In this document: positions 1-64,000 of the stretch, piece by piece | How positions within the stretch are numbered: position 1 is the stretch's first letter | Layout of the letters: each line of letters begins with the position of its first letter | DNA from: Nereocystis luetkeana | Lineage: Eukaryota; Sar; Phaeophyceae; Laminariales; Laminariaceae | Assembly: GCA_031213475.1 (NCBI GenBank) | Contig: JARUPZ010000007.1 | Coordinates: 6,505,586-6,569,585, forward strand | Direction of reading: 5' to 3' | Length of the DNA stretch: 64,000 nucleotides | The notes under the pieces: generated by a model | What the model was told of the DNA's origin: nothing | Database searches by the model: none | The model's input: only the letters and a program-made list of their open reading frames with translations | Program-made: the position numbers and the translations under genes

Positions 1-81
1 CGGTATAGACAAAAAACTATATATTTCCGTATTTTTACCAACAATAGTTGGTCCTATTTACTACGGCCCCCCGCAATATGA
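1..81. mobile_element. R2 MITE, clipped by window start
   Basis: This is the right part of the ~110 bp R2 inverted-repeat element, ending in a slightly diverged GGCCCCCCGCAATA. The left end lies outside the window. R2 copies have termini TTACGGGGG/CCCCCGTAA and sit in TA. Confidence 0.75.
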
Positions 82-142
82 ATACTATTACCATTAATAA
101 CATTCCACCTTTCGCCCTTTGTTCGAACCTTCTTATCCCTTC

Positions 143-480
143 ACAGATTGTTTCTCCTAGATTTTGCTTTCATTTTTTTCTTTTTCTCTTTCGATTTGTC
201 TACCTTGTTTTTGTTTTCTCTTTGATTGTTTCTTTTCGTTTCACTATTTCATAGATTGCGTATGTCGTGCCTATCGTATCTATTAATAGTATGATGACAT
301 GGCTTTGCATTGCATTGCCCAGTACTGCATACTGGTACGTGGCAACGTAGTATCTCTGTGGCGTAGCTTTGTGACCACAGAACTTGTATCTCTTCTAGGA
401 TTGAAGAATCGGCACGGACACTGGTCGTGCTGGATGTCGACGGGTAGAAAGAACGGTTTAATGTGAAGAACACACACACG
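143..480 (-). repeat. R3 dispersed repeat, full-length copy
   Basis: This ~340 bp family has a (CA)n end next to a conserved block with CGTCGACATCCAGCA and a pyrimidine-rich other end. Near-identical copies lie at 1037, 17850, 18659 and 23616. This copy carries an extra TTAATA at about 284 compared with the others. ORFs in the copies are not conserved in one frame, so it is treated as a non-coding interspersed repeat, perhaps a retroposed sequence. Confidence 0.8.
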
Positions 481-1036
481 CTCGTTTATACCAACTATTG
501 ATCCTATTAATAGCTGGTATCGTCCACTCACGTAGACTCGCCTCGAATCCAAGGCCGCATCCGGGCTCCATTGCCCACTCCATGGTTGCCTGCTCAACGG
601 GTGAGGGTGTCACCATCCCCCTCCCCCCCGCTCTGTTCTCTTTTTAGCCTCTTTAGCGATCTCGCATGTGGGATTTGAAGACCCGCCTCGAGATGGATGG
701 CGACCTGAGTGGTGACCGAGACGATCTGCAACAAACAACGGGCGCCCCTTCGTTAAGTATGTCACCATGGGTATCGGCCAGTCAAATCAACGACCTTCCA
801 CTCGCATCACAATGACCAGCTTCTCTTTCCTCTCTCTGCTCCAGGCAGCACGGCAAAGAGAACAACAAGAAGAAGACACATCAGGGGAAGCAACCATTTA
901 TGAATAGTACGTTACGAGGAAGGATATTTGACACTGCCGCTGTACAGGTAAGTGGTCTATCACCCCGTTGAATTACCCCGGTAGACGTTCGGAATTCCTA
1001 TAAAAAATAAAACCAACCGGAGTAATCGTATACCAG
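481..1036. other. Anonymous intergenic stretch
   Basis: No recognisable gene. A good polypyrimidine tract and AG acceptor sits at about 822-843 (CTCTCTGCTCCAG), followed by a short lysine/arginine-coding stretch. No partner exon could be supported. Confidence 0.3.
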
Positions 1037-1345
1037 GTATGTGTGTGTGTTCTTCACATTAAACCGTTCTTTCTACCCGTCGACATCCAGCACAACCAGT
1101 GTCCGTGCCGATTCTTCAATCCTAGAAGAGATACAAGTTATGTGGTCACAAAGCTACGCCACAGGGATACTACGTTGCCACGTGTGCAGTATGCACTGCA
1201 GTGGGCAATGCAAAGCCATGTCATCATACTAGATACGACAGGCACGACATACGCAATCTATGAAATAGTGAAACGAAAAGAAACAATCAAAGAGAAAACA
1301 AAAACAAGGTACTCGTACTCGTAGACAAATCGAAAGAGAAAAATA
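1037..1345 (+). repeat. R3 dispersed repeat, copy 2
   Basis: Begins with (GT)n and matches the reverse complement of the copy at 143-480. It carries a 12-base insertion, CTCGTACTCGTA, at about 1311-1322 directly after a TA; the other copies lack it. Confidence 0.8.
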
Positions 1346-1411
1346 ATGCGCACAGCTGAAACGTGAAAAATTAATACCAGGTACTGGTAATAATATTCGT
1401 ATTTAACCCCT

Positions 1412-1491
1412 TTAGAACCGCAGTCCCGTTTTGGGGACAAACTACTTGGAATTTGAGTGGTTTGTCCCCAAAACGGGACTGCGGTTCTAAA
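1412..1491. mobile_element. R1 foldback MITE
   Basis: A near-perfect palindrome with arms AGAACCGCAGTCCCGTTTTG and a short TTGGAATTTGAG loop. At least 16 relatives occur in this window. It has no coding capacity. Confidence 0.9.
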
Positions 1492-1977
1492 CCTACCTAC
1501 TGCTGTTTGTACCTGGCTGTGGTACCTGGTTTCTTGTCTCGCGGAATGTTCACCATGAATGATGAATGCGCATATAGGTAGGAGTCATCGACCTTGAAGC
1601 TTGTTATTATGTTTTTGTTTGTTTTTCTTCCCGCACGTTGTGGGATGGCGAAATAATATGCACAAACAAAATTAATGGTGGTATATACTGGTAATAACGC
1701 TACTACCTGCCTGCCCTTAACCGTTTTCGTTGTTGTGGGGACAAACTGTATGCATGCATGCTCGGAATTGGTCTCGGACATTTTTATTTTAGGCTTCCTC
1801 TGCTGTAGAGTGCAGCACCACAATGTTACATCATGAGTGGGGTGTCACCTGCTGCCGATGACGTGGAGGTGGCGCGTTGACGAGGATGAGTATAGGTGTA
1901 TAGGGTAAACGAGGGTTTGCCTAGGGAGGAAGACGCAAAACTATTATTATATCAATAGGATCCTGGAGACTTTGATA
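1492..1977. other. Anonymous intergenic stretch
   Basis: I see no gene and no repeat that I can match elsewhere in the window. A 108-codon minus-strand open frame here has no recognisable features. Confidence 0.3.
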
Positions 1978-2381: not shown

Positions 2382-3418
2382 GTACCAATTGAATCGTTAA
2401 TTAATTGTGTCAGCAGCGCTTATTACTTACATACAGAACGCGTAGTGCCATGTAGTACGTACTATGCTGTGGTTCAAGCAGTGACGGGCGAACATCATGT
2501 AGCTCATTCAGTGTTCGGAACTACCAGGTACCTGGTACTACTTACTGCTGAAAAACGAGTTGGCCGCGCCAACAACCACAAGCACAGGCAGGGCTGCGAT
2601 GCTGTAACAATCGACCTTTTCCGTCGTCATCGTTTTTTTCTCTCAGAAAAGCTGTCAATCTGCCAATAGTCCATACTGCTGCTGTATTCTACCAAAAAAA
2701 AGTAGTATTAGTGTTAATACTGGTAGACACGACAGCAATATATACGGCGGCTCCTTTCGTTCCCTATTATTTCGAGCTCCTCTTCCACACGTGTTTGTTT
2801 GTTTGTCCGTTTGACCCAAATTCCTTTTCTTCTTTTGGTCTTCTACTTGGTTCACGCTCAAGATTCTACCTTGCCTATAATAAGAATGTTCGAGTCCTCA
2901 GTCGTATGGGGGGGGAGGGTGAGTCTGCCAAAGGCATGCATGATGACATTTACATGATGAGTACCCCCCCCCGCCCCCCCCCTCGGCGTACGCTTCCAGC
3001 CTATTGATGGCGACGCCACACAATCAATCGGAATATGTTTTTGTGTTGTGTCATTGATATATATGGAATTATCCTAGAAAGCCTTTTAAGGACCAGGAGT
3101 ATGAGGAATCCGGGGAAGGAGGATGGCGTATTATATCCAGGAAGCCCTATATCTGCATACTATATAGGGAATGGGGGTTCAGCGCGGCTCTGTTCAGACT
3201 TTCATCGCCGGAGCCCTTTGTGAATAATTGGCCTAACTGAAGCGCACCCAGCACACACGTGAGTGACGAGGCGGGACTTGTCGAACAGGAAAACCTGCGA
3301 AAGGGGTTGCAAAACGTGTTTCGTGTGTGTCTGGGTCCCAAAAGCAACCTCTCGTAAAAACACCAGACTCTCGGAACACACGAGACATACATACACGACG
3401 ACGATGAAATGCTTGTGA
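2382..3418. other. Anonymous intergenic stretch
   Basis: No gene recognised. It contains the back-to-back word TACCAGGTACCTGGTA near 2522 and C-runs near 2962. Open frames here are short and lack family features. Confidence 0.3.
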
Positions 3419-4312: not shown

Positions 4313-4314
4313 GC

Positions 4315-4390
<76 letters not shown>

Positions 4391-5896: not shown

Positions 5897-8800
5897 CAGC
5901 GGGACAAGTGGGGACCCCCCGGACAACATCCAGCCCAGCCCTGGCCAGGTGCACCCTCGGGATACTAAACGCTCGGGGTACTAAACGTGCGGGAAGGAGG
6001 TGATGCGCTACCTCCTCTTCCGACGGCAGAGTAGACCCCCGGGGCCCAAAATGCGTTGGAGGCAGGGGACGATTTGCCTCCTTTTCCGACGGCGGCGGTG
6101 TCCACAACGGAGGGAACGGTCCCGGCGGGGGAGAGCGGTCCGCAAACTAGGGGGCAGGTGGAGCAGGGAGGAGATGCTGGGAGTGCCGTAGAAAGCCGTC
6201 ACACCGAGGGGGTTAGGGATGCCGCGCTAGCGGGACAAGTGGAGATCCCTCAGGCAAGGCCCAGTACCGTCTCTGCAACATTTGCGGCGGCAACGTCCCC
6301 TAGATCAACTGGAAGCGAATCGCCCTCGCGCGAGGGCGGCCAAGGTGGAATGGAGGCAAATGTTGGAGGTTCCTGTCCAAGTGCTGCGCGGCCGCTGCCC
6401 CCGGCGGCCGAAACGACACCACCGGGAGGAGAAGCCCTGGCGTCGGAGGGCGACTCGCGGATAGGGGGGCAAGTGGATCAGAGAAATGCTGTTGTAGTAG
6501 CGATGGCAAACCTTCAAACAGCCAGAGACAGGGATGTCACGCCCTCGGGACGCTTGGGGGTCCCCCTGACACCATCCGGCGCCACCCCAGCAATAGCTGG
6601 GAATACTTCCTCCGAACCTGGTAGCGCAGCCAGGGAGGGGGGGGGCACAGGAGGCGGACGAGGTCGACCGCGTGGGTCTAGGAGGGGGTCACGAGCGACA
6701 AGCACTGGGAGAGAGGCCGTCACGAACCGGGGAAGAATCCCTCGACCCGGCGGCAGTGAGCCACCCTCGGTTCCTGAACCTAGAGGGGGCAGCGAGTCGC
6801 CGCCGACGCCCGGATCTAGAGGGGGCAGCGAGCTTCGTTCGGATCCTGGATCGAGAGGGGGAGGTGGCGAAGAGAGAGAACTCCCCAGGGAAGGAGAAGG
6901 TGGCGAGGGGGGAGGACCAGCATCGGGGGGCGTAGGACGACTCCGTGCATCCATTGGCACCAGTCAAGACGGCGTGATGTGCGGGGGATGCCGAGCGGCA
7001 GTTGCTCGGGGGCACCGAGTGGTAGGGCTGCCGTGTGGAAACCAGCACGTTATGCACGCGCGGTTTGTGGTGTAAGCTATTCGAAGGAGTGGGTCACACG
7101 CACAACTCATTTGCACTACACGAGGGTGCACAGCCCGCCATGGGAGACGGGAATCACTGGAGGCAGCAGTTCAGGCTGATCCTGGACTACCAGGTATGTG
7201 TTACGGTCGCAGGACTTGGAGGAAGGCCGGACAACAACTACGATGAACGGGGGGAAGAGCTTTGTTACCCGTGGGACCAGAATTCGTTAGGAATAGTAGG
7301 GCCACTCGATGATAGTTCTCTCGAGCATCTCCAACAACGTTTCAACACCGTTGTTAAGGTGCAGCCGGGGCTAGCTACTGTCCATGCCAAGCTTCTCACC
7401 CACGTGCTCGGTCTCCTGAACCACGCCCTCGGAGCGCATTGGCCGAACAGACACTCCGAGACGCCGAGTTCGCTCCTGAGGGCCATCAAGCTGTGGTACA
7501 TAGTGCCAGCACTGCTACACTCGCAGGACAGCCGCGTGAAGCGACGCGAAAGATTCGCGTCCGTCGAACGTGGTGACATCACGCTTATTCTCCCGTGGTT
7601 GATGGAGTACACCAGTCGAGCATCGACACGGCGCAGGGGCCCAACCTACGAAGCCACAGACGCGGCTAAGTACGAGAGATCGTCGTCAGCCTGTCGCCAC
7701 TCGGGCGGGGTTTCAGTGGCAGCACGCGGTCTTCTCGCGGAAGCTCGAGCGCCCGGCGACGAGGTGACATGGGAGCGGGTGAAAGCCAAATTCCCGGGGG
7801 AAGACCGTGCCTCCATCTCCGAGTCGGCAGTGGCAGCGGTGACAGCAAGCTCCACGGAACCGGAGGAAGGGAGTGTTCCCAACTGGCGTCCAGAGCAAGA
7901 GTTCGATTCGCAGGTGGCCCTCGACGTCATCAACTCCCGAAATGCGTTATCAGGCGCGGGGAGTGACAGTCTACGCTTCTCACACTTGCAGTCGATCATC
8001 AGGACCGGCTTCGGTCGCGAGAAATTTGGAGCTAGCATCGAGGCCCTTTGGAGGCGGATCTTCGACGACCCCGGTGCATTCCCACCAGAATTCTGGCAGC
8101 TCTTCTTGCAGTCCAACCTCACTGCCTTGGGGTAAAAATGTCGCCCCGTATGTGTAGGTGTGACATGGAGACGTCTTCTCGCAGCTGGGACGATGCGGCA
8201 GTGGCGGCCACGGCTGGAAGAGATTAATCGTGAGGCAAGGCAGTTTGGGGTAGGGGTTCGAGGGGGGGTGGAGCAGGTAGCTTTACGCGCCCGGGTGCAC
8301 CATGAGGCAAGAAACTGGCTCATCCTAACTGACTGTTCCAACGCCTTCAATACTGTAAAGCGGACGGCAGTACCTGCCGAGGCGGCCACTTGCGTGCCCG
8401 CGCTCACGACGTTCATTGCTAAATGCTACGGCGAGAGGCCCGCCCCTACGTTCTTCCAGATGGATTCGGGGGAGCGGCGCAAAATTGACTGTTCCAGTGG
8501 AGTGCAGCAAGGGGATGCCATGGGCCCGGCGCTGTTCTGCATGCCACTGCTGCCAATACTCAAGCGGGTCCGTGAGGAGTTCGAACCCCGGGGTGTTGAA
8601 GCCTTTGCCTACCTCGATGACATCAGCATCGGTATATCAGAGATCACACCGGACACGGTGAGAGTAGTGCCCTTTCTCCAGCACGAGCTGTGCGAAATAG
8701 GCATTGCCATTAACCCCAGAAAGACGGTTGCTTTGCCTCCAAAAGGGCATATATGCCTACGTCGGAAGAGATAGCACTTCTGAGGGGCATTGGTGTTCGC

Positions 8801-10706
8801 ATTGCGGAAGGGGGTGGGGTATAGGTGGTTGGCGTGCCCATAGGCGCTGATGCATTCGCGGTGAACAGCGCCGTGGAGATAGTCCGAGATGGGGGAGCCG
8901 AGCAACTCGCGCGCATCCTGCCGCGCATGCCGGACCAACAGTCGGCGAACCTCATCGCCACCAGTTCAATGGTGCAGCGGACCTCCTACACTTAGCGGGT
9001 AATGGACCCGGAGCTGTCACTACCCGCGTGTCAGCGGGCAGACACTAGCGCAATGTGGATGCTCGAGCGCCTTCTCGAGCTTCCAGGGACAGCGGACGAA
9101 TCGCCGTTCTTTGCGGACGGATGCCCGGCGAACCGGTTGACGCTACAGCCGCACCAGAAAGCGCAGGCGAGCCTCTCCACAGGGGCCGGGGGGCTTGGAC
9201 TGTCGTCGGCTGAATCAAGGAGAATGTCAGCGTCCATCGGGAGCTTGGTGGCGACGGTGCCAGAGGTCCTCGCCGACCTCTCCGGTCCATTAGGGGAAAA
9301 AGTCCGAAGGAAGTTGCCCAATTCGGACCTCGTTCGCCGAATATGGAGCAGCGTCAGGGACCTTCGCGATATCCATGGGGTATCGGAGGAGGCAAAGGCA
9401 AACGTAATCCCGGAAAGTTGGCGGAACAGGGCATTCCGCGCAAACGAGGAAGGAGGGACAGAACAGTATGATGTGGAGGTACTGCCGGCGCATGACGCCC
9501 TAACGATCAGCTCCCACAAGGCGCAATACAAGCTGGGGCAGCAGATCAACCGGGTACGGTACCAACGGTAAGTTGCTTCTCTGGACCAGCTCCCCGAGGT
9601 AGCAGGCCCGTCGGATCGGGACGACGTGTTCGGGGGGACGGAAACCAGAGGTCTTGCCAAGGCTCGGCAACGGAGCCTATCGGGACCAGGCGCTGTCGCC
9701 TGTTTGCGTGCAAGGCCTGTGGACACGGCACGTATCATACCGGCTTCTGAGTTCGTGTCTATGGGACGGCGCTTCCTGGGAATGGAGGAGCCCATAGTGG
9801 CGAGGTGCCCCTGCTCCGAAGCGACGGATGTCACCACACGTCACGCGCGCACATGCCACCGAGCAGGCGCACAGGTTAACCAGCATCAGCCGCTAGTCCA
9901 CGCGCTGTCTCGCACCTTTAAGTGGTTGTCCATCCGCCATCAAATGGAAAGCGGAGCGCCCTTCAACGCCGACAGAAACCTCCGCATGGAATGGGCATAG
10001 TGATAGAGAGGGGAGGCCTCCGAGACGCTACGTCGTCAGAGTACCGCAACAAGGCGATACTCCTCGACATCACGCATGCAGACCCCCAAGCGAGGGTCCA
10101 CATGCGGGCTGGCAGCGCTGATCGAGACGGATCAGCCGCTTCCACTTCTGAGGCGCGGAAGCGCAACCACTACGCTCGTGCAGGACAAGTGTCCTTCGAC
10201 GAGCGCAGCCAAAAACTTGTCACCCTCGCGGTGGAAAGCTTTGGACGCCTCGGGAAGGAAGGTAGCGATTTCATCGACCAGCTGGCGGCGAGAATCGTTG
10301 GAGGAACGGACGAGGGATCTTTAGCAAGAAAAGGGGTTTGTAAGGAGCACCTTTTCCAGGTAATATCGGTGACTACCCAGGTCGCGATCTCGCGCAGAGT
10401 GCACCGATATAAGCTCGCCCTGCGAGACCGCCAGGCCGCCAGGGGGAGAAGGGAGGAGGAGGGAAGACTACTTCCCAATGGCGTGGGGATGGAATGTAGA
10501 TGCGGAGTAGGACGCATGGCGTATAGATATATATTAGGTAAAATATCTCGGTAAATGGTGGGGGTGCATATTCAAGTGAGTATACGCAGGAAAGGAGAAT
10601 TGGTTAGATGAAGTTAGTGGTATTCGATTAATTATGTCAGCTTTTTCATTTTGAATGTAGAACGCCCTGCACATTGCCAGAAGGCAAATAAATAATAAAA
10701 ACATAT
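5897..10706 (+). mobile_element. RLE-type non-LTR retrotransposon, decayed copy
   Basis: This is the older copy of the family that is intact next door. It keeps, in order, a Gly/Pro/Ser/Arg-rich region, the second RING-H2-like finger, the reverse transcriptase, the CCHC knuckle and the endonuclease domain, but in several frames. The start is placed where LINE-like composition begins; no match to the first RING finger was found, so it is probably 5' truncated. The 3' end is ACATTGCCAGAAGGCAAATAA, a diverged form of the tail of the second copy. The left region also has internal repeats built on GCGGGACAAGTGG (5900 and 6228). Confidence 0.85.
6056..10554 (+). pseudogene. Broken LINE polyprotein (RT/endonuclease)
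   Basis: Open segments line up with the intact 1843-codon protein as follows. 6056-7075 covers the low-complexity region and finger MCGGC...GNQHVMHAR. 7035-8135, in another frame, covers the segment from WDQNSLGI to FWQLFLQSNLTALG. 8160-8774 covers the reverse transcriptase with LTDCSNAFNTVKRTA, GVQQGDAMGP and AYLDD. 9002-9571, 9626-10000 and 9922-10554 cover the thumb, CCHC and endonuclease regions. At least five frameshifts or stops (about 7070, 8135, 8770, 8995, 9570, 9990) make it non-functional. The catalytic YMDD of the intact copy is YLDD here. It should not be able to move on its own. Confidence 0.88.
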
Positions 10707-10757
10707 ACCTGGTATATACTGCCGAGGCTACACCTGCGTTATGACGGCGCCACAGTG

Positions 10758-17849: not shown

Positions 17850-18188
17850 CGACAGATTGTTTCTCTTAGATTTTGCTTTCATTTTTCTTCTTTTTCTTTT
17901 TCGACTTGTCTACCTTGTTTTTGTTTTCTCTTTGATTGTTTCTTTTCGTTTCACTATTTCATAGATTGCGTATGTCGTGCCTGTCGTATCTAGTATGATG
18001 ACATGGCTTTGCATTGCCCACTGCAGTTCACACTACACACGTGGCAACGTAGTATCTCTGTGGCGTAGCTTTGTGACCACAGAACTTGTATCTCTTCTAG
18101 GATGGAAGAATCGGCACGGACACTGGTTGTGCTGGATGTCGACGGGTAGAAAGAACGGTTTAATGTGAAGAACACACACACACACACA
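17850..18188 (-). repeat. R3 dispersed repeat, full-length copy
   Basis: Good reference copy of the ~340 bp family with none of the TA-bounded insertions seen in other copies. The (CA)n end is at 18172-18188. Confidence 0.85.
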
Positions 18189-18658: not shown

Positions 18659-18998
18659 CAGATTGTTTCTCCTAGATTTTGCTTTCATTTTTTTCTTTTT
18701 CTCTTTTGATTTGTCTACCTTGTTTTTGTTTTCTCTTTGATTGTTTCTTTTCGTTTCACTATTTCATAGATCGCGTATGTCGTGCCTGTCGTATCTAGTA
18801 TGATGACATGGCTTTGCATTGCCCACTGCAGTGCACACTGCACACGTGGCAACGTAGTATCTCTGTGGCGTAGCTTTGTGACCACATAACTTGTATCTCT
18901 TCTAAATAGGATTGAAGAATCGGCACGGACACTGGCTGTGCTGGATGTCGACGGGTAGAAAGAACGGTTTAATGTGAAGAACACACACACACACACAT
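18659..18998 (-). repeat. R3 dispersed repeat, copy with AATA insertion
   Basis: Near-identical to the copy at 17850 but with an extra AATA at about 18904, giving TAAATA where others have TA. The (CA)n end is at 18979-18998. Confidence 0.85.
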
Positions 18999-20152
18999 AT
19001 ATCTACCACACACGAGAACCACAGCCACAGAAGAATCGCCGACCACACACCGCAAGAAGATACGCTTATACTACTTATACTACTTGGCCGCGGGGACCAC
19101 AGCTTCAGCATCGACCTGCGGCATCATATCATAGCAACAAACAGCAGTGTATAACATTAAATAGTACCCCCCCCCCCACATTACGTACAACAAGTAAGTG
19201 TGAGAGATCTATTTGTGTACCATGATATATATATATATGATTCACTTTTATTTTGCTTGCCATCCGACAATGTATTATTTGTGTATACCGGTATGATTCA
19301 TTGACAATGTCAATAAAGGTACCAGTATACCTGAGGAAGGTACGCTCTCGGGATCGGGATGGTGCAGATTCTTACATTATTAATTATCTTCAAGTTGTTT
19401 TTAAAGAGCAGCAGCAGTAGTTTCGGGTGTACCGGTTTTTCTACCATGGCAACGCCACGTCCAGCAAGAAGTCTTCTCGAAGCGAGAGTGTATATATACT
19501 GCAGAATACTGCTGCTGCTGTAGTATGAGTATTTTAGAGCAGCAGCTATTATAGCTGCTGCTATAGCAGTGGAATGCAGATGGATACTATTATTATCATG
19601 TTACTTTTATTATTACCAAACCTTGTGCCAGGGTAGTACCTCCTCTGGTAAAGCAACTGAAAAAGCAGCAGCACAGCAGCAAGCAGCCAAGCATGTTTCG
19701 TATCGTGTCTCTGGGACGTTTTTTTTTTTCCATTTCATCATTCCTCAAAGCTTATCATTACTTACTTGTTGTTAGTGCTGTTCGGAGTTCGGACGCGGAG
19801 TGATGAGAGCAGACCAACACAGAACAATCCATTCGCCCCATATTCCCCATATTCCCAGCTCCATATTCCCATAATACACCTTCAGGTCGGCGGGTCTACC
19901 GTAAGAAAAAACGCCCCCCATCCTGTTTCCGGTTTGTTGTGTTGTACATGCTACAGCAACAAAAGCAGTACCGCTACTAATACCATTGGTATTTTTATAC
20001 TACTATTAATACTCCAGACCTGAAGATATCACGACAGCAAGAAGAGGACAACTGGATCGTACCAGGAAATCGATCGGCGTGCCGTACATCAACGTCATCA
20101 CGCAACGCCATCATCATCACCATCGTCATCGAAAGTTACCTGGTACCTGGTA
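18999..20152. other. Anonymous intergenic stretch
   Basis: No gene recognised. It holds a minus-strand LINE-tail word at 19256-19272, several AGCAGCAG tracts and numerous CTGCTG-TA words. The open frames are made of simple repeats. Confidence 0.35.
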
Positions 20153-21976: not shown

Positions 21977-22084
21977 ATTTACGGGGGGGCATAGTTAACA
22001 GGACCAAATATTGTTAGTAAAAATGGTTAAACATATAGGTTTTTATGTATGCCATCGGTCCTGTTAACTATGGTCCCCCGTAAT
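21977..22084. mobile_element. R2 MITE, full length
   Basis: TTACGGGGGGG and GGTCCCCCGTAA termini with an internal AGGTTTTTATGTAT block. Confidence 0.9.
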
Positions 22085-23420: not shown

Positions 23421-23615
23421 TTCACAAAGCTACGCCACATCAATGTGTGTGTGTTTTCACAATATTTATGAGTCATGGTAATCCAGGTTTCACTCAAACA
23501 GATAAGAGTAATAACGAATAAAAAAGAGTAGACAATGCGATGCCATGCTCATCGTACTGGATACGACAGGCACGACATATTGTGTTTTCAGCATTATTAG
23601 ACATACCTGGTACAC

Positions 23616-23866
23616 CTTTCACTATTTCATAGATCGCGTATGTCGTGCCTGTCGTATCTAGTATGATGACATGGCTTTGCATTGCCCACTGCAGTGCACA
23701 CTGCACACGTGGCAACGTAGTATCTCTGTGGCGTAGCTTTGTGACCACAGAACTTGTATCTCTTCTAGGATTGAAGAATCGGCACGGACACTGGTTGTGC
23801 TGGATGTCGACGGGTAGAAAGAACGGTTTAATGTGAAGAACACACACACACACACACACACACATT
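23616..23866 (-). repeat. R3 dispersed repeat, truncated copy
   Basis: Lacks the pyrimidine-rich end. A stray piece of the same family, GATACGACAGGCACGACATA, sits just before at 23560. The (CA)n end at 23840-23866 is the longest in the window. Confidence 0.8.
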
Positions 23867-25884: not shown

Positions 25885-26013
25885 TATTACGGGGGACCAT
25901 ACAGTAGTAAATAGGACCTACGGTTCATACAAAAACCTACATATTTCGATAATTTTACTTACAATATTTGGTCCTACCAGGTACCAGGGTATTTGTTATG
26001 GTCTCCCGTGAAA
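25885..26013. mobile_element. R2 MITE carrying two TA-bounded insertions
   Basis: Compared with other R2 copies, it has CAGTA inserted after CCATA at about 25902. It also has CCAGGTACCAGGGTA inserted after CCTA at about 25977. In both cases TA borders the insertion on each side. The outer termini are TTACGGGGGACC and a mutated GGTCTCCCGTGAA. Confidence 0.85.
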
Positions 26014-26499: not shown

Positions 26500-26800
26500 G
26501 GGTACCCGACCGGGTGGGGGGCGGTTGAGACGGAACCGGAACCGGGTACCCGGGTCCCGGCAGACACGGGTACCCGGGTACCCGGGTTACCATACACTAT
26601 ATGCTCCCCTTTTAGCGTTTGAGCGGCGGCGGATGAGGCAGGCACGGGTATCTGGGTACCCGTGTACCCGAGTACCCGGGTTACCATACACTATTCGCTC
26701 CCCTTTTTGCGTTTGAGCGGCGGCGTGGTAAGGCGGACACGGTTACCCGGGCACCACTGTTACCGTACACTATTTGCTCCCCTTGTAGCTTTGGAGCGGC
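26500..26800. repeat. GGGTACCCGGG minisatellite
   Basis: About three ~105 bp units, each with a GGGTACCCGGGTACC-type core, TTACCATACACTAT, GCTCCCCTTTT and GCGTTTGAGCGGCGGCG. Related GGGTACC and GGTTCCGG pieces continue at 26945-27025. Overlapping KpnI/SmaI-like palindromes make it highly self-complementary. Confidence 0.85.
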
Positions 26801-31197: not shown

Positions 31198-31320
31198 TTT
31201 AACCGTTCTTTCCACCCGTCAACATCCAGCACAACCAGTGTCCGTGCCGGTTCTTCAATCCTACCTGGTATAAAGATACGAGCTCTGTGGTTACTATACT
31301 TCGACGCTACCACACAGGCA
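31198..31320 (+). repeat. R3 dispersed repeat, fragment
   Basis: Contains AACCGTTCTTTCCACCCGTC through TCTGTGGTTACTA. Where other copies read CCTAGAAGAGATAC, this one has CCTACCTGGTATAAAGATAC, another case of TACCTGGTA inside a repeat. Confidence 0.75.
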
Positions 31321-36653: not shown

Positions 36654-36751
36654 TAACCCTTTTAGTACGCAGTCCCGTTCTGGGGAGAAACTACTTGAAA
36701 AATTGACTGGTTTGTCCCCAAAACGGGACGGCGGTACTAATAGTAAAAGGG
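36654..36751. mobile_element. R1 foldback MITE with TAGTA insertion
   Basis: Starts TAACCCTTTTAGTACGCAG. At the right end CTAATAGTAAAAGGGT stands where other copies read CTAAAAGGGT, an insertion of TAGTA at about 36740. Confidence 0.85.
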
Positions 36752-37690: not shown

Positions 37691-38012
37691 AAGAGTTGAT
37701 TGAATGAATACCGCTCTCGAGATGTAAGCAGCAAGTACGGCTTTGTGTATTGTCCCGAAAAAGACGGAGCGCTTGTACACGTATTGTCCCGAAATATGTC
37801 CGCTGGGATATCGCTCGAAATGGAAGGAGTTACCTGGTACCTGGTACAATTCGAGAAAAAAAAAAAAAAAACTGTACCACCACCGTGCAGGATACATTCG
37901 TATCTCGTATACGTATATACATCCCGACATAAGGGTCGCTTGTCTATTTCCTGGTATATGTATTATGTACGTACTGGGTAGTAATTACGAGCGGTGCGTG
38001 GTGCGTATTTTT

Positions 38013-48300: not shown

Positions 48301-50349
48301 TCGGAACTACTACTTCACGTAACTGGTTGAAGGCTGGCTAACTTGGGTACGACGTGTTGTTTCTCGAGGTGTGGAGTGCTTTCGCGAAGCCCCACCCTAC
48401 ACACCCATCAAATCCACCACCAACTCAGCAGTGCATGACTTTTTTCTTCACAAGCAAGCAACCCCCCCCCCCCCCCACACACACACACACCAGCGACTCC
48501 ACGCCGCCCTGTTAATATTACTGCTGTACACACACGCAACACGCAAAAGACAGAACATGAGCGACCACGGAACGAATGCCCACTAGCGGTGACAAAAACC
48601 AGCGCCGCATGATATTATGATATTGTGCGATGCAAGCAACGACGGCTAATTCTCCCGGGGCCCAAGCGGCGTCTCTCCAAGGCTGGGAGAGCGACCCGGA
48701 CGGTGCGGAGAGACGCCGGCCGGGAGCCGAAAGGGGGACGGCACGAGCTAGCCATCGACCAGGGAGGGCAACGTACCCTGGCCTACCTTTCCCTCCTTTC
48801 ACCCCCCCCCCCCCGGTGCTACGCTGCCGGCAGTGCCGAGGAGGAAAAAGGTAGACTTTTAATAGACAAGAAGAGCACATCGCCCTCTGATCTGTCGCTT
48901 CGTAGCTACTGCTCGTTGCCGCTGCCCTTCTCGGCTCCTGGGCGGCGTCTCTCCGCACGTGTGCGACGTCTCTCTCGATCCTGAAGAGAGATCCTGAAGA
49001 GAGGAGGGTGGCTTGGATGGAAATCCAGCAAGGAGCAGTCCTCGCTGCTTGCGTCCGACAGAGGCTACGGCGCTAGTCTCAACGCTGGTCGGCAGAGAAA
49101 GAGAGACAGAGAGACGGACGCGTTCTAGCGCATGAAGGGGTAAGGGCACGGTTCGGCCCAAAAGTATTCCCTTGGCCCGAATCGTCAGGGTACTACCGCC
49201 AGGTTCGTGATGGAGATTGCGCGCCTTGGACAGGTAGATGACGATCCACGGCAGCAGACCATCCACATGTACACAGCAGCAGTTCCTCAGCTTCCGTCTG
49301 TGAGAGGCTCCACAGTTATTCGGATCCCAACCCAGGAAGCACATATCCTACTACGGGGGAACCATACCAGGTAGTAAATAGGACCAAATACTGGTATTAC
49401 GGGGGACCATAGTTAACAGGACCAAATATTGTTAGTAAAAATGGTCAAACATATAGGTTTTTATGTATACCATAGGTCCTGTTAACTATGGTCCCCCGTA
49501 ATAGTAAAAATAGCGAACTATATACCAGGTAGGTTTGTGTGTGTACCGTAGGTCCTATTTAATATGCCCCCCCGTAACAAGGCAGAGTGTACGGGTCCCA
49601 CCCTAAAGCGACATGATGAGCTACGCAGATCATCTGCCTTGATAGGTGTAGATCACTTGAGTGGGACTTGATCGACCGTCAGAGGTGAGGATCGTTGCCC
49701 TCCGTGCGATGTACCACTCTTGTCGGGAATGCAAGGAGAGCGTTTGGACACTAATATGAGGACGAAGTGGTCCTTATATTTCGGACCAGACCGGTACGGG
49801 AGCTTCCCGTCGAACGAACAACGCACTTATAAGCTAGAGCGGTGTGGCTCGAGGTCGGCGCACTGTTGTCAACGTTGAAAGCATGGCGGTACAACAAACA
49901 ACGACAACGAAAGAAAGGGGACAAAACGAAATGGCCGAAGCTCAAAAGCGAACGACGACGTTACGGCCATGGATTTATGTTGCCCACATGCCACAGCGGC
50001 GAGCAACAGCTGCGAAACCGAGCACCGCCCTCTAAATGTGGTATATGAGAGAGGAGTACTGTGACGGGGGACCATATTAAATAGGATCTACGGTACACAC
50101 AAAAACCCATATATTTCGCTCTTTTTACTAACAATATTTGGTCCTATTTACTATGGTCCCCCGTAATAGTACGCTCGTTACATCCGTCGTCATCGGCGGC
50201 GGCGGCTGCGGTGGTGGCGGCGGGCAGACATGGTAGAACCGCCGCCGGTGGCTTTTGGTGCGTGGTTCCTGTGTTTCTGGAGTAGCAACAGCGTTCGCAG
50301 CAGGCAGCAGCCGGCCGGCCTCTATTGTCTTCGACGCTACGACAGCGGC

Positions 50350-50387: not shown

Positions 50388-53300
50388 CCGGATTTTGGAA
50401 ACCCACGAATTTGTCTGCTATAGTAAGCGGGCTTCGTTTTTTTTATTTTTATTTTATTCGAAAATGCTATTATTCGGGACCCCCCCCCCCCCCCCCCCCC
50501 CCTTGTGCAATAGCAGCAGGCGTAGTAGCCAGGTTCCAGTTGGAATTGAAAGTGGAACCTGTGCTGCTCCTGGCGGCGCTGCCCCTTTTACCTTGAATTT
50601 GTGTGATGAGACGGGCGGACTCAACAGACGAGCCTCCTGAGACCGATGCTTGCCAATGTATGTAGGAGTCCGGCTTTGTTGGGCGCTTCGAGTCCTCTCT
50701 TGGCCTCGACACAATATACATTTAGAGTTGTTGCTGTTGTTGTTGTTGTTGTTGTTGTCACATTAACTCACAATACAATGCAGTCCGTGGTCGCAGGACA
50801 GGCTCCAATAACTCTGGAGTGGAAGAAATACCTCGGTAGTAGAACAGACGCAAGAAACAAAAAAAAACATACATCCGCATTCCACCACTAAGGACACCAG
50901 GGAAACAAAAAGGAGACTACTACGGGGGGCCATAGTTAATAGGACCTATGGTATACATAAAAACCTGTATATTTAAGCATTTTTACTAACAGTATTTGGT
51001 CCTATTAACTATGGTCCCTCGTAATAACAGACAAACCGCTAAAAAAAAAGAAGATGAAGCGAGTACGAAGTATGGGGCCATCACTCAAGAGGTCAAACCG
51101 CGGTCTCCTATGATGGCGTATTCGACCGCGTGTGCGCAACATACTAGCTTCGAGAGTGGGGGGCGGTCAGTCAAGCAATCAGTCGAGAGGTCAAACCGCG
51201 GTCTCCCATCACAGCGTGTTCGACCGTGTGTGCGTAACATAGTAATTTTAGTATAGGAGCGATCAGCCAAGAGGTCAGACCGCGGTCTCCTATACGATAT
51301 GTTTGACCGCGCGGAGCGGTCAGCCAAGAGGTCAGACCGCGGTCTCCTCTACGGCATGTTTGACCGCGCGGAGCGCTCAGCCAAGAGGTCAGACCGCGGT
51401 CTCCTATACGACATGTTTGACCGCGTAAATGTTGTTTTAGTGTGGGGGCGGTCAGTCAAGCGGTCAGCCAAGAGGCCAAACCGCGGTCTCGTATGGGGCA
51501 TATTTGGCTGCAGTGTGCAACCTAAGGGCCTCCTATGGTAACGACGGCAGTTGTGGCAGCCAAGCCATCCCGTTTCGTTCATGCATATTTCGCGATGGCT
51601 CACGGGGTTGGTGCGGGGGGGGGGGGGGGGGGGGGCGGCAAGGAGGAGATTGTGGGGGAAGCGGGGGAGAGGGGGTCGGAGGAGAGGATAAGAGGAGGGG
51701 GAGGGGGAGGGGAGGAGGAAGGGGGGGGAGGGTGTACTCGATAGGATGTATGTACTTGATCTCATGCACGGCCGTAGTCGTATATTATCCTATAGACCCT
51801 CGCAGCCCTACAATGTCGGGACGGAGCATTTCGGGTTTTCACCGACCAGGCAGACGTTACTTTCACCAAGCGCGAAGCGTCGTGAGGTGTCCGGCGAGTC
51901 GCGGCGAGGGTGAGCTGCATCCTACTAAGAACCGCTTGTGAGGCGGACTTCCATGTGGAGGAAGGGCTACGCGGGTCTGCAACCACAACGAACGGCCGGA
52001 CTCTTCGGGAATCACTAGCAGGCTATTCGACCGGCCCGACCCGGCCCGGCTCGGACAAGCCGAAATAAACTGCGACGTTAGATCTATTATCCGAATTTTT
52101 GCAGGGTGCAGGGAGGGGGGAGGCGGGGCGGGGAGGGAGTGGGGGGGTGGGGTTGGGCGCAAGATACGTGGAATGCGAAACATTTTGTTGGTGGTGGTGG
52201 TGGTGCTGCTGCACGATGCTTTACGGGTGATATGTACATGCGTAACAGACCGCGGTTTGACCGCTCGGAGGACCGATCCCGTGCACTAAAACTGGTATAT
52301 TGGGGCCAGAAGAGACCTTTTGGCAGATGCTGAAGAGACCTACCGATCAGTGGGCAGTGGTATATACCTCCGCAATGTCCCTCCCCTCGCACGGACCATG
52401 ATGCAGATAGATCATGAAGATCATGATATATCTATCTGTCTATCTACAGTGTTAATAGTATCATCACCTGCCGATGGGAGAGGCTGTGCAGGATCTGCAT
52501 GCCATGGTACGAGCCCCAACCCAGGAATGACGTGGTTAATCATGCAGATTACACGGCTCCCACCCGGCAACATGCTAGATCATACAAGATCATACTGCTC
52601 AGGGATCTATGTGCCCCTTATTCATCGAGATCATACAGTGGGAACGATCTGTACATGATCTGCTCGAGGTATCAAATGTTGGAATCTCGCAGGCTTCGCA
52701 GCATTGATCTCCGGCACCCCCCCTCGTCACGGACTATTTCAATGTAGTCCCCCACACTTATTTCGAGTAACGTGTCCCCCATTTTTTTGTTACTACTAAA
52801 TGTATGATGCCGCGAAAAAATCATGATTTACAGTAGATCATCTAGACCATCTGCTGTACAGATAGGTGATCTAGTTCCATCACCTGCCGTTCTGGGAGGC
52901 TGTGCAGGATCTGCCTTACAGGGCAGATCCCACCCCGGAAACACGTGCTGTTATACTGCTGTAGATGGATCATGCAGATTATAAGAGTCCCACAGACAAA
53001 ATGGGCAAGAAAAACATCTGAAAATTCAGACGGGTCGGGGGGGGGGCGGGGGGGGGACCAGGAAACATGAGCGATATCATACTATTACGGGGGACCATAG
53101 TTAATAGGACCTATGGTATACATAAAAAACCTATATATTTAACCATTTTTACTAACGATACTTGGTCCTATTAACTATGGTCCCCCGTAATAGCAAAAAA
53201 AGCTACTTGGGATTGCAGCAGTAGAAGTATATGCTGTTTATCCTTTCTTCTCTCTCCTCTCTCCTCCCGAAACGCTTTTGGTGGGTTTCCGTACCATAAT

Positions 53301-55915: not shown

Positions 55916-58900
55916 GATTATTATTATTATTATTATTGTTGTTATTCGTCTTTTATTTGTAAAGGGCGACTATTTTTCATCGTCTGCCAGTCATTACAGC
56001 CGCTTCTTCTTCTTCTTCCTTTTTTTTTTCCTGACGCGCTTTTTTTCGCCGTGGTTGATTTTGGTTTTTGTCTTATTATCCTCGTCTCTGCTGATAACAA
56101 ACACTCCATGAATGAATGAAGCGTTTTTTAATGTATTCTTGCTTCTTTCTTTTCTTCTCTTTTTCCTGACGCGCAGTTTTTTTCGTCGTTGTTTGTGCTT
56201 GATACTCTACTGCTTGGCTTGTAGATACCGATCCGTGGGGACGATTTCAGCTGGGAATACGAGGGCCGCGGAGCGACGGACGGGAAACAGGTGCGATGGT
56301 GTCATTGCCTTTGTAAGCCTGTGCCTGTGCCCGCGGTATAGCGTGTACCTGGCACGTCTCTGATCCTGCTTCCACACAATGGTTTACACCTCGAACAAAT
56401 CATGGACAAGAACATCTATCCCTGCTTCATGATCTGTGTATAGATGGTTCAGCGCAGATAGATAGTTCATATATTCCTGATTTGTGTGATCTGTATGATC
56501 TGTATGATCTAGCTCGCCTTGCCGGCCGAGAGTCGAATGAATCTGCCCTATCTGCCACAAGAAGAGAACATGTATCCTGGGTTGTATCCTGGGTTGGGCC
56601 TGAACTGTGCAGGGCCCGCACAGCATATCGCAACGGTAGGGTTCGAGATCTAGATGATCTATCTGTAAATGATCTACATGCAGATGATCTATCCGTAGAT
56701 GATCTATCTGTGGATGATCTATCCGTAGGTGATCAATCTGTAGATGATCAATCCGTAGATGATCTAGATGATCTATCTGTAGATAAGCTATCCGTAGACG
56801 ATCTATCCGTAGATGATCTACCTGGCCGGCGTTTATCTGAAGCGATTGATTTGAATGGAAAGAAGAACGAAGAAGAAGACACAAATCCAATTGTCACGTA
56901 CTGGTAGGTAAATACATACACACGATTTTTTTTTGTTGCCCCAACAAATCTTGCTTCGGATAGATGACTGTTGTATTTTTTTTTTGCGCGAAGAGCCAAG
57001 ACAAAATACATTTTGAAAAACTAGCTCCTCTTTTGTGAGGCCATCGACGGACCACACCTCGCCACGGTGTGTTTGTTCCCTATCTATCTATCCTTGGCTT
57101 TTGGTATCCCATAGAGCAATATGCCTGCGCTCACACTACTCATGTCAGCTTTTTTCCGAGAATTTTCCAGGCGGTCGGGGATGGAGGAACGGTAAGGCTA
57201 AGGTGACGTATCAGAGCCAAGTATGCTACCAACAGTTTGGTCGTGGCTGATTGACCCGTGTACGCGTCTCGGAACTGATACAGTTAATTTGTTGTTGTTG
57301 TTGTTGTCGTTGTTGTCCTCGGTGGTGGTTGTTGCTGCTGTTGTCGTCGTTGGGTGGTGATTTTTGTCGCGCTCGATCTGGTTATTTCGTACCCGTACGT
57401 ACTGTAGGCGTTGCTGCTTTTTCCTCTATGCCGCCATCACTCTTGCCCGTGCCACATAGTGCTCGCTCTCTGCGCCCGCGCCCGGTGCCCTGCCCTGCGG
57501 CGTTACTGCCTTCGTGCCCACTGCTCGCTGATTGCGGGCCAGGCAGTGTAGTGCGGTGTTAGTAGCAGTCCACGTTCCATCCTGTGAACGCTTATGTCCG
57601 GCCACCCGCGCGGTCGCCGTGGTCATCCTCTTTGGAAATTACTATTATTAATAATGATTTGTTCGTCTCTATATATATTAATATATATGTATATGATATA
57701 TATACCGGTATATTATATGGGGGGAGTTGATTCTTGGATAAATTGAGCCGATCAAGTCGCGGTTTCGTCGCGCGGAGCATACCCAGCCCCATTCCCAACC
57801 CCCCCCCCCCCCCCGCCACCCCTCTGGGGGTGTCCGCAGTAGGAGTAGGAACGGTGCTGCGTCTCGAAAGGGATGCGTGTTTAAATTGCCAAGTAACTAA
57901 GGCGAGCAACAAATGAGTACCCCCACTCCTCCACCTCATACGACTCCGGCCATGAATGATAATGAGTACACCCCCGCCCTCCACCTCCCCCACCTCCCCT
58001 CCACCCCCCCTCACCGCCCCCCCCCCCCCCCTCCCTCCTGTACCCCCCACCCGTCCCGTCGCTCCGCGCGCTACCTCGCCCGTTGCCTCTGTCGGTCTGG
58101 TTGGGTTTAGTCGCACATGGCATCGGCGGCGGAGGAGCTAACGCAGACACACGCGGTCAGCATCACCCGCGCGAGCACCCTCCTTATCGACGACGATGTC
58201 AACAACGTGAGACTAGGAATGGAGCAAGGAAGGACGAAACAAAAATGGCCTGTCCATTGTATAACGTAAAGAAAGGGGGTACTCTAGGACACAGAAAGCA
58301 GCGCGAGAGGTGGGAGGGGGGTCCTTGCAATTTGCGTCGGGACAGAAGTGGTTAGCGCAAATGGAAGCAGCCCTTTTATGACGAAAGGCGGACCAACTGC
58401 ATCCTAACTCGTCAAGGCCCCCGTACAGCTACAGCTACGATGTACCTGATGTTCAATTCAAGTCCGCCGACAGCTTGGCTTCTGCCCCCAGCCAAGGAGG
58501 ACTCGAGACAGATCATCTACAGATCAGATAGACCATCTAGATCAAGTATGTCATCTGCAGATCAGATAGATCGTCTACAGATCAGATATATCATCTACAG
58601 ATGAAATATATAATCTACAGATGAAATATATCATCTACATATCAGATATATCATCTACATGTCAGATAGATCATATACATATCATACATATCATCTACAG
58701 ATCAGGTATATCATCTACAGATCATGCCTACTTCATTATCTAGATATTTAGGGCAGATAGTTGGGTCCCTGATCTTATGATGTGATCTATCTTTTCATGT
58801 TGCCGCTTGGGGCCCGTATATTTTATGTAGTCTGCACGTTCTATCAAGACAGATCACCCGGGTTGGATGTGCAACTACACAGATCCTGCACAGCATATAA

Positions 58901-60510: not shown

Positions 60511-60561
60511 GGCTGAGCCCCCCCCCCCCCCCCGGCCCGCCTCTAGCGTGTATGAAAAAAA

Positions 60562-61440: not shown

Positions 61441-61499
61441 AGGGGGGGGGGGGGGGGGGGGACGGGGGGCGTTAAGCGGGGTGCGGGAGGAGAGGGTGT

Positions 61500-61740
61500 A
61501 CGGGTGTACTCATGCTGCAACCCGTAATCGTATCTATGACCTTAGACCCTCGCATCCCTACGATAATGCCGGGATGGAACTCGTCGGGTTTTCATCGACC
61601 AGAGGCAGACATTGCTTGCTGGCACCAAGCGCGAAACGCCGTGAGGTGTTCGTATGGCGAGTTGCCCGAATGGTGAGGCTGTATCCTACTAAGAACCGCT
61701 TGTGAGGCGGGTTGTCTTGCATATGAATGACAGCGTCGAA
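61500..61740 (+). repeat. R7 repeat, module b
   Basis: GTGTACTCATGCTGCAACCC then TCGCATCCCTACGATAATGC, GGCAGACATTGCTTGC, GCCGTGAGGTGT, CCTACTAAGAACCGCTTGTG. Together with module a and the G run at 61432-61461 it forms the fullest copy. Confidence 0.85.
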
Positions 61741-62744
61741 CGAGGGGGAGGGGGGGGGGAGGGGGGGGCAAGTGCGATGCTTACATCCTGATTTGCCGGT
61801 GGCGTTTTGACCTGCCGGTGATGTATTGACTCTTGCCGGCGGTGTTTTAAATATTCTGCCGGTTGTGTGTTTTGTGTTTTGTGTTTTTTTTTCGAGTTTT
61901 TTTCCCGACGCTTAAGCTAGGTGTGTATGCGTGCTTGTAGTTCTTGTGTACGCACTCGTTTGTAGCAAGCATCCCACGTTAGATTGGTCGCCTTGATCTT
62001 ACGGTTCGTGTATGGCTTGCTTACGTACGGTACCGCCATAAACGCTGCCTGCCCTCGCGCGATTTGGGCTCGTTTTTCGGCTCGCGCTAACGTCCATCCA
62101 CAGTAGTTTGAAGGCGCGGAGAAAGAGAGAAAGAGAGAGAGAGAGAGGCGTGTTTGTTTTCGATGATCGCCGTGAAGATATTGTGTGGCCGTATTTTTTC
62201 AAAGGGGGGGAGGGGGGGCGGGGGTGCGTTATTCAAGGAAGTTCTAGACAGTTGAGTGCGTCAAGGCAGGTATGTCGTCGTTGTTTTCGATCTTCCGAAT
62301 TATTTGTGGGTCAGACTTATAATACCGCAAATGTTGGGGTATCCCTCCCTCGAGTGGCTGCCTTTTTTTTACTTTTCATACTATGCCACTCTGTTCGGAA
62401 ACGTGAGGGTACCGTTGGGAGTACCGTTGGGATATATGCGTGAAGACGAAACAGTGCTCGCAAATTCGCCCACCCTGACGGAAATGTGAGAGGACCGGCG
62501 GGTTACTAAAATGAAGGCCAAGCGGACATTATCATTTGCACCTGGATTGACTATGACAAATGGGGCCCACGACGGCGTATTGTGTACCAGGTAGTGAGTA
62601 TTTTGCGGTCGCGCATGCAGCGGAGCGAATGCTCGATCGCTCTTGGCCTTCCTTCCGTCCGTCCTTTCGACACTCTCAGCGGACGGAACGGTGCAATCCA
62701 ACGGCCCAGCTCTACTACTGTGTTGCTGCGTTGTGGTAAGCTGT
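61741..62744. other. Anonymous stretch with a possible exon boundary
   Basis: (AG)n near 62115-62145. A consensus-like donor AAGGCAG/GTATGT at 62269 follows a short open stretch. The downstream 62256-62489 frame contains a membrane-like EWLPFFYFSYYATLFGN but has no recognised family. No gene is called. Confidence 0.3.
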
Positions 62745-63065
62745 TGGCTATTGTGACGGCTATTGGCTGTGATGGCTGTTATTGGCTATGGTGGCGACTA
62801 GTGGCTGTTGTGGCTGTTATTGGCTATTGTGGCGACTGTAGTGGTTATTTGTGGCGGCTATTTGGCGATTGTGTTGGCTACTGACTCCCCGTATTGTGGC
62901 GTGTATTGGCTAATTGTGGCACCTACTGCCTACTCATATTGTGGTCTATTGGCTAATTGTGGCCCCTACTGCCCACTCGTATTGTGGCGTCTATTGGCGA
63001 ATTATGGCACCTACTGGCTACTCGTATTGTGGCGTCTATTGGCCATTGTGGCGGCTATGTTGACT
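62745..63065. repeat. GGCTATTGTGGC minisatellite
   Basis: Short units (GGCTATTGTGGCGACT) at the left grade into ~60 base units (ATTGTGGCGTCTATTGGCTA, ATTGTGGC(A/C)CCTACTG) at the right, about four copies. Confidence 0.88.
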
Positions 63066-63751
63066 ATTGTTTGTGGCATCAACGGCGATAGAAAATAAAA
63101 TAAGACGAACGAGGTTCTGTTGGTTCATGTACATAACATACATGCGCAGAGGTAAAGCTTTTTGGCGAGTTCGAGAGACACGGGACGAAAAGGCGCGGAT
63201 GGTGGTGGTGGTGGAGGTGGTGATGGTGATGGGGGTTGTGGGGGTGTCGGGGGGCTAAGGACCATCATGCGTGCCTTTTGTTAGGATGCATCGGTTTCGT
63301 GGTGTGTGTTAGGCCTGCTTCGGATGTGCTTGCCTTGCTTTCCCGATGGGTCGAGTTGAAAAAATGGCGTTGAGCGTACGGTAGTAGGTGCATAAAAACA
63401 CGCGCGCGATGTTACTCCTGTTGTTGTTGCGGCGAAGGTTGGAGGCAGCCTGCCTGAAGAGCATGCGGTCATCTGTGAATAGCCCGAAATAAGCACGAGT
63501 AAAAACCGGTCTAGTTTTCTGTAAGCACGACTTTCTTGGTATTGTCGTCGTTTTTTTGTGATGTAGTGCCGTGCCGTGGATGCTGCGTCTGTCTTGTGTA
63601 CAGGAATCGTCACGCGTGCGTTGAGGGTGGCTTGAGCAATAACGAGACATCTATCTATGCCTGTTGCCGTAGGTCGGTCGCTTCATGGGCTGAGTTGCGG
63701 TTTGTACGTAGGTCTTATTGATAATTCTCGATCCCTCAACTTTTGCGTGGA
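63066..63751. other. Anonymous stretch
   Basis: No gene supported. (GGTGGT)n at 63200-63230. Confidence 0.3.
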
Positions 63752-63829
63752 CTACTTGTGAAGGAGAAGGAACAGCAGCAGTCCCCCTCTCATCGATGCC
63801 AGCTCATCCATCTTGGTCACCTTCGCCAT
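63752..63829 (-). CDS. Possible first coding exon, minus strand
   Basis: Minus-strand ATG at 63829 gives MAKVTKMDELASMRGGLLLF then LLLHK, with almost all third positions G or C and a hydrophobic stretch like a signal or anchor. TAG follows at once, but a GT inside CACAAGTAG could act as a donor. No downstream exon was identified, so this is only a hint. Confidence 0.25.
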   Translation of the reverse strand: MAKVTKMDELASMRGGLLLFLLLHK

Positions 63830-64000
63830 TTAAAATAAAAGACCGCTGGAGGACACGATCGGTGGCGTCTTAAGGACCATCACCCGCCACCGTGGGAAGG
63901 ACTCACGCATCGGACAAGATCGGGTTAGATACACATCCCCACCTCACGATATATAGATCATTCAAGGCAGACCAAACCCAACTCCCTGATTGTGTATGCA
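63830..64000. other. Window end, unassigned
   Basis: If the minus-strand exon is real, this is its 5' flank; it has TATATAGATC near 63950. Nothing else recognised. Confidence 0.25.

Follow-up and report, generated by a model that had tools for sequence, protein, structure and literature searches.

TA-bounded short insertions in the genome of the brown alga Nereocystis luetkeana as probable excision footprints of TA-target transposons

Short words and repeats in the window

We analysed a 64,000-nt stretch of the genome of the brown alga Nereocystis luetkeana (part of contig C7, JARUPZ010000007.1; hereafter the window), whose non-coding DNA carries many copies of a few short words bounded on both sides by TA, above all TACCWGGTA, together with three repeats, R1, R2 and R3. 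A first-pass annotation, made from the letters of the window, had proposed that these words are micro-insertions left at TA by excised transposons. Word statistics were based on the window, on a 264-kb sample consisting of the window and 20 pieces of 10 kb from eight contigs, taken at round-number places without random draw, and on pattern counts in the whole genome (465,085,209 bases in 1,987 contigs). One contig of 37,397 bases carries cox1 and has a GC content of 35% in a 4.3-kb piece; it suggested a brown-algal host. L-numbers denote genome stretches outside the window, L024 and L029 being pieces of the sample.

R2 is represented at 49397..49501 by a TA-flanked element of about 105 bp with terminal inverted repeats (TIRs) and ends TTACGGGGGACC, the proposed parent type of the word TATTAATA; other R2 elements lie at 53085..53190, flanked by TAC|TA, and at 21979..22083. 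R1 is also a TIR element (1404..1491), with ends ACCCTTTTAGAACC in fuller copies, and the footprints predicted from it were without enrichment. Six window copies of R3 match the site anchor described below, one of them at 1037..1311. The R3 copy at 17911..18185 has an empty TA, and that at 23617..23853 has TACCTGGTA just outside it, at 23604. Inverted R3 stretches at 337-479 and 1041-1183, about 0.56 kb apart, form a potential fold-back.

The words greatly exceeded chance. Against the means of 100 dinucleotide shuffles per word, the window contained 32 copies of TACCWGGTA (shuffled 0.38), which upholds the first estimate of at least 30, 25 of TATTAATA (0.74), 15 of TACTGCTGTA (0.05) and 16 of TACTCGTA (1.37), the last two counted on both strands, and 18 of TACWGTA (5.84). 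The micro-insertions are real beyond the window as well: TACCWGGTA occurs 182,395 times in the genome, once per 2.55 kb, compared with 1,744 for the reversed pattern used as a control. Its centre is strongly W-biased, the form with C or G in the centre, TACCSGGTA, having a count of 10,882 against 1,899.

In the 264-kb sample, to which the following figures refer unless otherwise stated, 93 of the 136 copies of TACCTGG continued into TA. With expectations built from the frequencies of the inner word and of TA, CCWGG was the most over-represented type between TAs (47x), followed by TTAA (28x), CAGCAG (18x), CTCG (7x) and CWG (2.9x). Among palindromic 4-mers between TAs, TTAA stood at 28.8x expectation. 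Ten of the 15 others (ACGT, GATC, CATG, CGCG, GGCC, AATT, AGCT, TGCA, TCGA and GCGC) were at 0-1.4x, and five were raised (GTAC 3.1x, ATAT 3.2x, CCGG 3.9x, CTAG 9.1x and TATA 19.2x). The sample holds 93 TACCWGGTA, 32 from the window and 17 from the single piece L029, as well as 59 TATTAATA sites and 32 merged R2 loci.

TACCWGGTA is depleted in long open frames: two of the 93 lie in frames of at least 250 amino acids, which hold 2,602 of the 15,364 TAs. The reported scatter outside coding sequence is thus confirmed. One word had been overlooked in the statement that none occurs in the long interspersed nuclear element (LINE) frame, since TACCWGGTA at 10706 falls in the first codons of the big LINE frame 10692-16289; another, at 7188, lies inside frame 7026-8135. 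Two LINE-like reverse transcriptase frames (RVT_1) are present on the + strand, 8136-8774 and 10692-16289, the second of 1,865 amino acids, and a scan of viral contigs gave no relative of this protein. The window also contains three near-tandem copies of an 81-base unit (26551-26804) and an array of 15-base units around GATGATCTATCYGTA (56632-56839). Long CTA/CTC triplet arrays and TACCCT-type repeats occur in L024 and other pieces of the sample.

Insertion at TA in repeat copies

Inserts were called by all-against-all alignment of repeats in the sample. Exact inserts with TA on both sides, the mark of a Tc1/mariner or pogo footprint, were found between copies of the same repeat, the word preceding the additional TA being AA, CG, CTG, CAG, TTAA, CCAGG or a double CCTGG. 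In the window (all coordinates on the + strand), alignment showed TTAA+TA inserted at a TA of R3 (281..288, a putative TATTAATA footprint), a double CTCGTA insertion in R3 (1309..1323), AA+TA in R3 (18903..18908), TACAGTA in an R2 element, at its GGACCA|TA site (25900..25906), and a 6-base TA-bounded insertion in an R1 element (36738..36746). Reading by eye revealed CCAGGTA followed by CCAGGGTA in the right arm of the R2 element that also has TACAGTA (25975..25991). Further examples are TACCTGGTA at a site of R3 where other copies are empty (31262..31270), TACTGTA with an uninterrupted copy in L022 (43299..43305), and TACCAGGTA in R2-like stretches, once at a GGGGAACCA|TA site (49365..49373) and once at 49523..49531. 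All the insertions first quoted at 284, 1311, 18904, 25902, 25977, 49366 and 49521 were recovered by reading or alignment. The R1 insertion at 36740, given as five bases (TAGTA), is in fact one of six, TAA|TAG|TAA.

Some TAs were used more than once. Two adjacent CCWGG words, TACCAGGTACCTGGTA, share a TA at 2522..2537, pairs of adjacent CCTGG words lie at 20137..20152 and 37831..37846, and six of the 93 TACCWGGTA sites are 7 bases from the preceding one.

In the sample alone, TA was duplicated by 17 of 112 non-tandem inserts and CT by 19. Seven of these 17 lay in CTA-rich runs of L024, and the CT excess was likewise in CTA-rich runs. When low-complexity loci and doubles were removed and 40 R3 loci added (35 fetched with a query itself bearing CCTGG and five by pattern), TA was duplicated in 36 of 245 inserts, 20 from the fetched R3 loci and 16 from the sample; the next dinucleotide, GT, was duplicated in eight. 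Sixteen of the 36 inserts were 7 bases long. The proposal that indels consist exactly of a word plus TA at TA holds for this class, and the majority of the remaining small indels in these repeats had no TA border. Low-complexity sequence held 164 of the 459 insert loci. R2 copies with an insert were matched by R2 copies without it; the R2 alignment alone yielded 34 inserts, 13 of them TA-bounded, with some events doubled by the palindrome, and the later count was de-doubled by place.

Uninterrupted relatives of word-bearing sites were also sought within the sample (empty-site test). They were found for 12 of 93 CCWGG sites (two of which match within 100 bases of themselves), 5 of 59 TTAA, 6 of 82 CWG, 1 of 57 CTCG and 0 of 33 CAGCAG. 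Among other words the results were AA 8/173, CA 7/216, CG 1/143, TCA 2/56, CCG 1/61, GGWCC 1/20, CC 0/79, AT 0/28, GC 0/26 and, for four rarer words together, 0/21.

Single TA sites carried several words. The R3 site CAATCC|TA|GAAGAG gave 53 anchor matches, seven without CCTA. The other 46 comprised 16 empty sites, ten with CCTGG, four with CCAGG, two with TTAA, one each with CCATGG, CCAG, CAA, TT, TAG and CCTGT, and eight diverged or complex sites, one beginning CCAGG. These proportions are biased, because five loci were picked by pattern and most others by similarity to a CCTGG-bearing query (40 of 937 candidates scored). At the R2 site GGACCA|TA, dispersed copies contained CAG, CTG, CCAGG, a double CCTGG or CCA (L090 and L091). 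A transposon nested in R3 before R3 spread was considered and rejected, with 0 and 5 candidate filled sites in the searches described below. Two word classes at one TA point to repeated hits rather than to nesting before the spread.

Candidate parent elements and target preferences

Profile searches in six reading frames, with introns disregarded, gave 28 matches in the genome to the pogo-type transposase domain DDE_1. Element ends were placed for four stretches, L074, L076, L080 and L082, and not settled for L075, L077, L078, L079 and L081. L076 contains a TA-flanked element of 2612 bp with TIRs identical at 20 of 20 bases (CAGTGGGGGGCC / CAGTGGGGGGCCCTATATAG) and a 295-amino-acid open frame spanning the DDE_1 match; L074 has the same left end. 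A second TA-flanked element, of 2188 bp, has a TIR CAGTACCGGCC matching at 17 of 18 letters (L080), and L082 has one end in common with it. These pogo-like elements have CAGT ends and therefore predict the word TACWGTA, which is also the excision product of Sleeping Beauty. In L079 (374-400), TACAG stands immediately before a CAGTGGGGGG end, a possible source of CAGCAG words.

R2 is short, has TIRs and duplicates TA, as expected of a Stowaway-like miniature inverted-repeat transposable element (MITE). Its ends are 5'-TTACGGGGG...CCCCCGTAA-3', and TA precedes 31 of 36 R2 ends, the 36 being matches of one strict expression that leaves looser ends uncounted. Before the TA of these 31 ends the letters T, A and C have frequencies of 0.74, 0.61 and 0.68. 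TTAA sites show the same preference for T-A-C before TA, whereas at CCWGG sites the preferred letters are A at -6, -3 and -1 and a pyrimidine at -2. TAC|TA half-sites accounted for 18 of 102 at TTAA words (background 5.4%, p 9e-6), 3 of 162 at CCWGG and 11 of 31 at R2 elements; AYA|TA half-sites accounted for 22 of 162 at CCWGG (background 4.8%, p 1e-5) and 3 of 102 at TTAA. Half-sites of words were counted only more than 150 bases from R2, and the p values are optimistic because the choice of TAC and AYA was itself guided by these data and each word contributes two half-sites.

TATTAATA reads TA+TT+AA+TA, that is, the end letters of R2 (TT...AA) at the R2 target. Because the TAC|TA preference is shared and the R2 end letters spell TTAA, TATTAATA probably derives from this small element. 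No other word is tied to an element as strongly as TTAA is to R2, and this is the only pair in which footprint sites were found to share the target preference of a parent. An autonomous partner of R2 was not found, a 2323-bp R2-ended stretch in L018 having frames of at most 154 amino acids. CCWGG has a preference of its own, with no parent for comparison; its AYA|TA resembles the Sleeping Beauty target, AYATATRT.

Elements with CC ends were sought in several ways. None of 23 candidate large insertions in the sample was a clear TA element with CC ends, and TIR scans returned the arms of R1, R2 and R3 and few others. One candidate CC-ended element, TACCAGAAAACGG (L020:4286, 300 bp; 42 places genome-wide), was rejected: about seven of ten places read, judged by eye, also share sequence upstream of TACCAG, so that TACCAG is not an element end.

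Filled sites were sought by pattern. GGGGGACCA|TA of R2 was followed by CCW and then A, C or T at 63 places, of which ten were read. Two had TACCATA (L090 and L091) and four a CCAAATAGG form; nine of the ten ran on into R2, L083 not doing so within its 49 bases read. L084, L085, L087 and L088 are R2 copies bearing CCAAATAGG where others have GTAAATAGG. The R3 site had CCW followed by A, C or T at five places, three of which return into R3, while L055 and L057 showed no clear return to R3 in the stretch read. L055, L057 and L083 have TACCA after a repeat flank and no clear return to the repeat in the stretch read; L057 enters R1-like and R2-like sequence.

Excision footprints and other explanations

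We consider it probable that cut-and-paste transposons of several families, all targeting TA, left the words behind as footprints of their excision. This reading, already offered in the first-pass annotation, fits the data best: the insert is spelled by the ends of TA-target elements for TTAA (R2, which also matches in target) and for CWG (the CAGT-ended elements), and the CCWGG centre is W-biased. It is further supported by the inserts of word plus TA in repeat copies, by the different words that dispersed copies carry at one TA, by the repeated use of some TAs and by the scarcity of TACCWGGTA in long frames.

The data themselves establish that the words are specific, that they were inserted at TA, that their classes differ in target preference and that R2 and pogo-like elements exist in the genome. 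We infer the departure of elements from these sites and, with it, the overhang length, the manner of rejoining and the CC family itself. Transposons that duplicate TA on insertion would be cut out at staggered positions a few bases in from either end; the flanks, each keeping TA plus a few element letters as a 3' overhang, would be rejoined by end joining. R2-type elements (5'-TTA...TAA-3') would leave TTAA, pogo-like elements (5'-CAG...CTG-3') would leave CAG or CTG, and a third family, not found here and probably ending 5'-CC(A/T), would leave CCAGG or CCTGG. One scheme could serve all three: 3-nt overhangs CAG/CTG rejoined with an overlap of three and a central mismatch would give CWG, TTA/TAA with a perfect overlap of two would give TTAA, and CCA/TGG with an overlap of one, the A:A mismatch being settled as A or T, would give CCWGG. 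The alternative is a 5-base overhang, CCAGG, which is not required because 3-base overhangs could yield the same product. CCA ends with 3-nt overhangs predict enrichment of TACCATGGTA, TACCATA and TATGGTA, and 5-nt CCAGG ends do not; the 3-base overhang is slightly favoured by the one CCATGG copy and the two copies with CCA.

Several results weigh against this interpretation. Neither the R3 site, the ten places read at the R2 site nor TIR scans of the sample yielded an identified element with CCAGG, CCTGG or CCA ends. The genome pattern search found no place where the R3 site is followed by CCWGG and then A, C or G, and the few places examined at one R3 and one R2 site did not include a site filled in one copy and scarred in another. 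DDE_3 had no matches in the genome; Transposase_1 had none either, although control genomes also gave none and its absence is not shown. By itself the empty-site test is clear only for CCWGG and weak for other words. The direct join CCATGG between TAs was not enriched in the sample (0 seen, 0.4 expected), which leans away from the 3-base overhang. R1, although TA-flanked, fails as a parent, its predicted word ACGT standing at 0.3x expectation. Lastly, the CAGCAG and CTCG words lie outside the overhang scheme. The mismatched-centre rule put forward for most words describes CCWGG (182,395 W, 10,882 S); TACTGCTGTA and TACTCGTA do not simply follow it, the strand counts being CAGCTG 2 and CTGCAG 4 against CAGCAG 30.

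A part of the set, notably TACTGCTGTA as a CAG expansion of TACAGTA and the CTA- and TTA-rich words, might be a product of slippage in microsatellites, a possibility that we hold tentatively and think rather unlikely. CAG and CTA runs are abundant in the sample, over a third of insert loci (the 164 of 459) are of low complexity, CAGCAG and CTGCTG are present with scarcely any CAGCTG or CTGCAG, and no CAGCAG site had an empty relative. Even so, CAGCAG between TAs reached its 18x despite masking of simple repeats, and slippage is inapplicable to CCWGG. It is improbable that no transposon lies behind CCWGG and that a TA-cutting nuclease, for example a domesticated transposase, opened sites to which repair machinery added fixed short words. 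The missing CC-ended element and the gathering of several word types at some TAs would suit such a nuclease; a word that is fixed, biased to W at its centre and distinct in target preference calls for a template, which element ends supply, and TTAA and CWG match the ends of elements present in the genome. Still less credible is a spread of the words by selection as sites bound by proteins, methylated or occupied by nucleosomes. Methylation at CCWGG is known, and the 9-mer is palindromic with an extended symmetric flank preference, although this symmetry is built in by counting both strands; against it, the words enter copies of transposons and repeats, R2 arms among them, as insertions of exactly 7 bases, occur once per 2.5 kb and comprise several unrelated words with common TA borders. 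Least probable of all is programmed elimination of elements from somatic nuclei in each generation, with the assembly showing the somatic state, for although ciliate DNA elimination likewise works at TA and detectable CC elements are far fewer than footprints, the scars seem to be inherited and to age, and pogo-like and R2 elements are still in the assembly.

The ageing of the presumed excision footprints was estimated from CCWGG. Changes of its centre amount to 4.9% of the exact count, (10,882-1,899)/182,395, and in the sample 94 single-letter neighbours of TACCAGGTA stand beside 93 exact copies, a control word having 52 neighbours, which gives about 5% per site. If centre changes are mutations, a change of about 5% gives the footprints the appearance of inherited sequence of no great average age.

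In Sleeping Beauty and mariner, the transposase nicks the element three bases from its end, and the flanks are left with 3' overhangs of 3 bases (PMC7827188). The short insert, here presumably element-derived, and the duplicated TA are alike; the main insert differs in being a fixed 5-base word with some 180,000 copies in one genome, without detected DDE_3. The pogo-superfamily element Passer leaves footprints of 0 to 4 bp (PMC9976928). DDE_1 domains and TA-flanked CAGT-ended elements are shared with this group, whereas no CC-ended pogo-like element was identified here and CCWGG, at 5 nt, exceeds the Passer range. It falls inside the totals of 3-6 bases inferred for Stowaway MITEs of Triticeae, which retain 2-4 bp on one side and 1-2 bp on the other (PMC1925063). 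Footprint length by itself is therefore not new, and what stands of the suggestion of an undescribed 5-base type is the fixed word and its scale. Stowaway and the mPing/14T32 yeast assays (PMC4561436) also show several distinct footprints per site with repeated gain and loss, and R2 has the same build as Stowaway, a small TA-flanked TIR element. Those are single loci, unlike the genome-wide pattern here; R2 has ends TTACGGGGG, and its link to a mariner transposase is only putative. Another brown alga, Ectocarpus, has similar elements, 17 families of Mariner-Tc1 with nearly 12,000 copies that are mostly non-autonomous; neither "footprint" nor "excision" occurs in the main text of that report (PMC12477816). 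In the open-access literature searched, neither a genome saturated with footprints nor a CCWGG footprint was reported, and among the matches listed for the word strings none was on transposons by title. Thus a genome saturated with one fixed footprint word was not found in print, in the sources as covered, whereas footprints of 3-6 bases are known at single loci.

The chances seem about even that a TA-target family absent from our searches left the roughly 180,000 five-base footprints (CCAGG/CCTGG) and almost no copies of its own, having jumped much and multiplied little. If so, the genome would be a fossil log of transposition events written in one fixed word. Past transposition is normally read from the copies that stay; here departures would be recorded, datable and countable, and the word together with the target preference would tell several families apart. 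One could then measure, over evolutionary time, how often elements insert and excise, how the breaks are repaired and which targets are chosen. At 7 bases per CCWGG event, the footprints would, moreover, form a further class of non-coding sequence, one that annotation of repeats probably misses.

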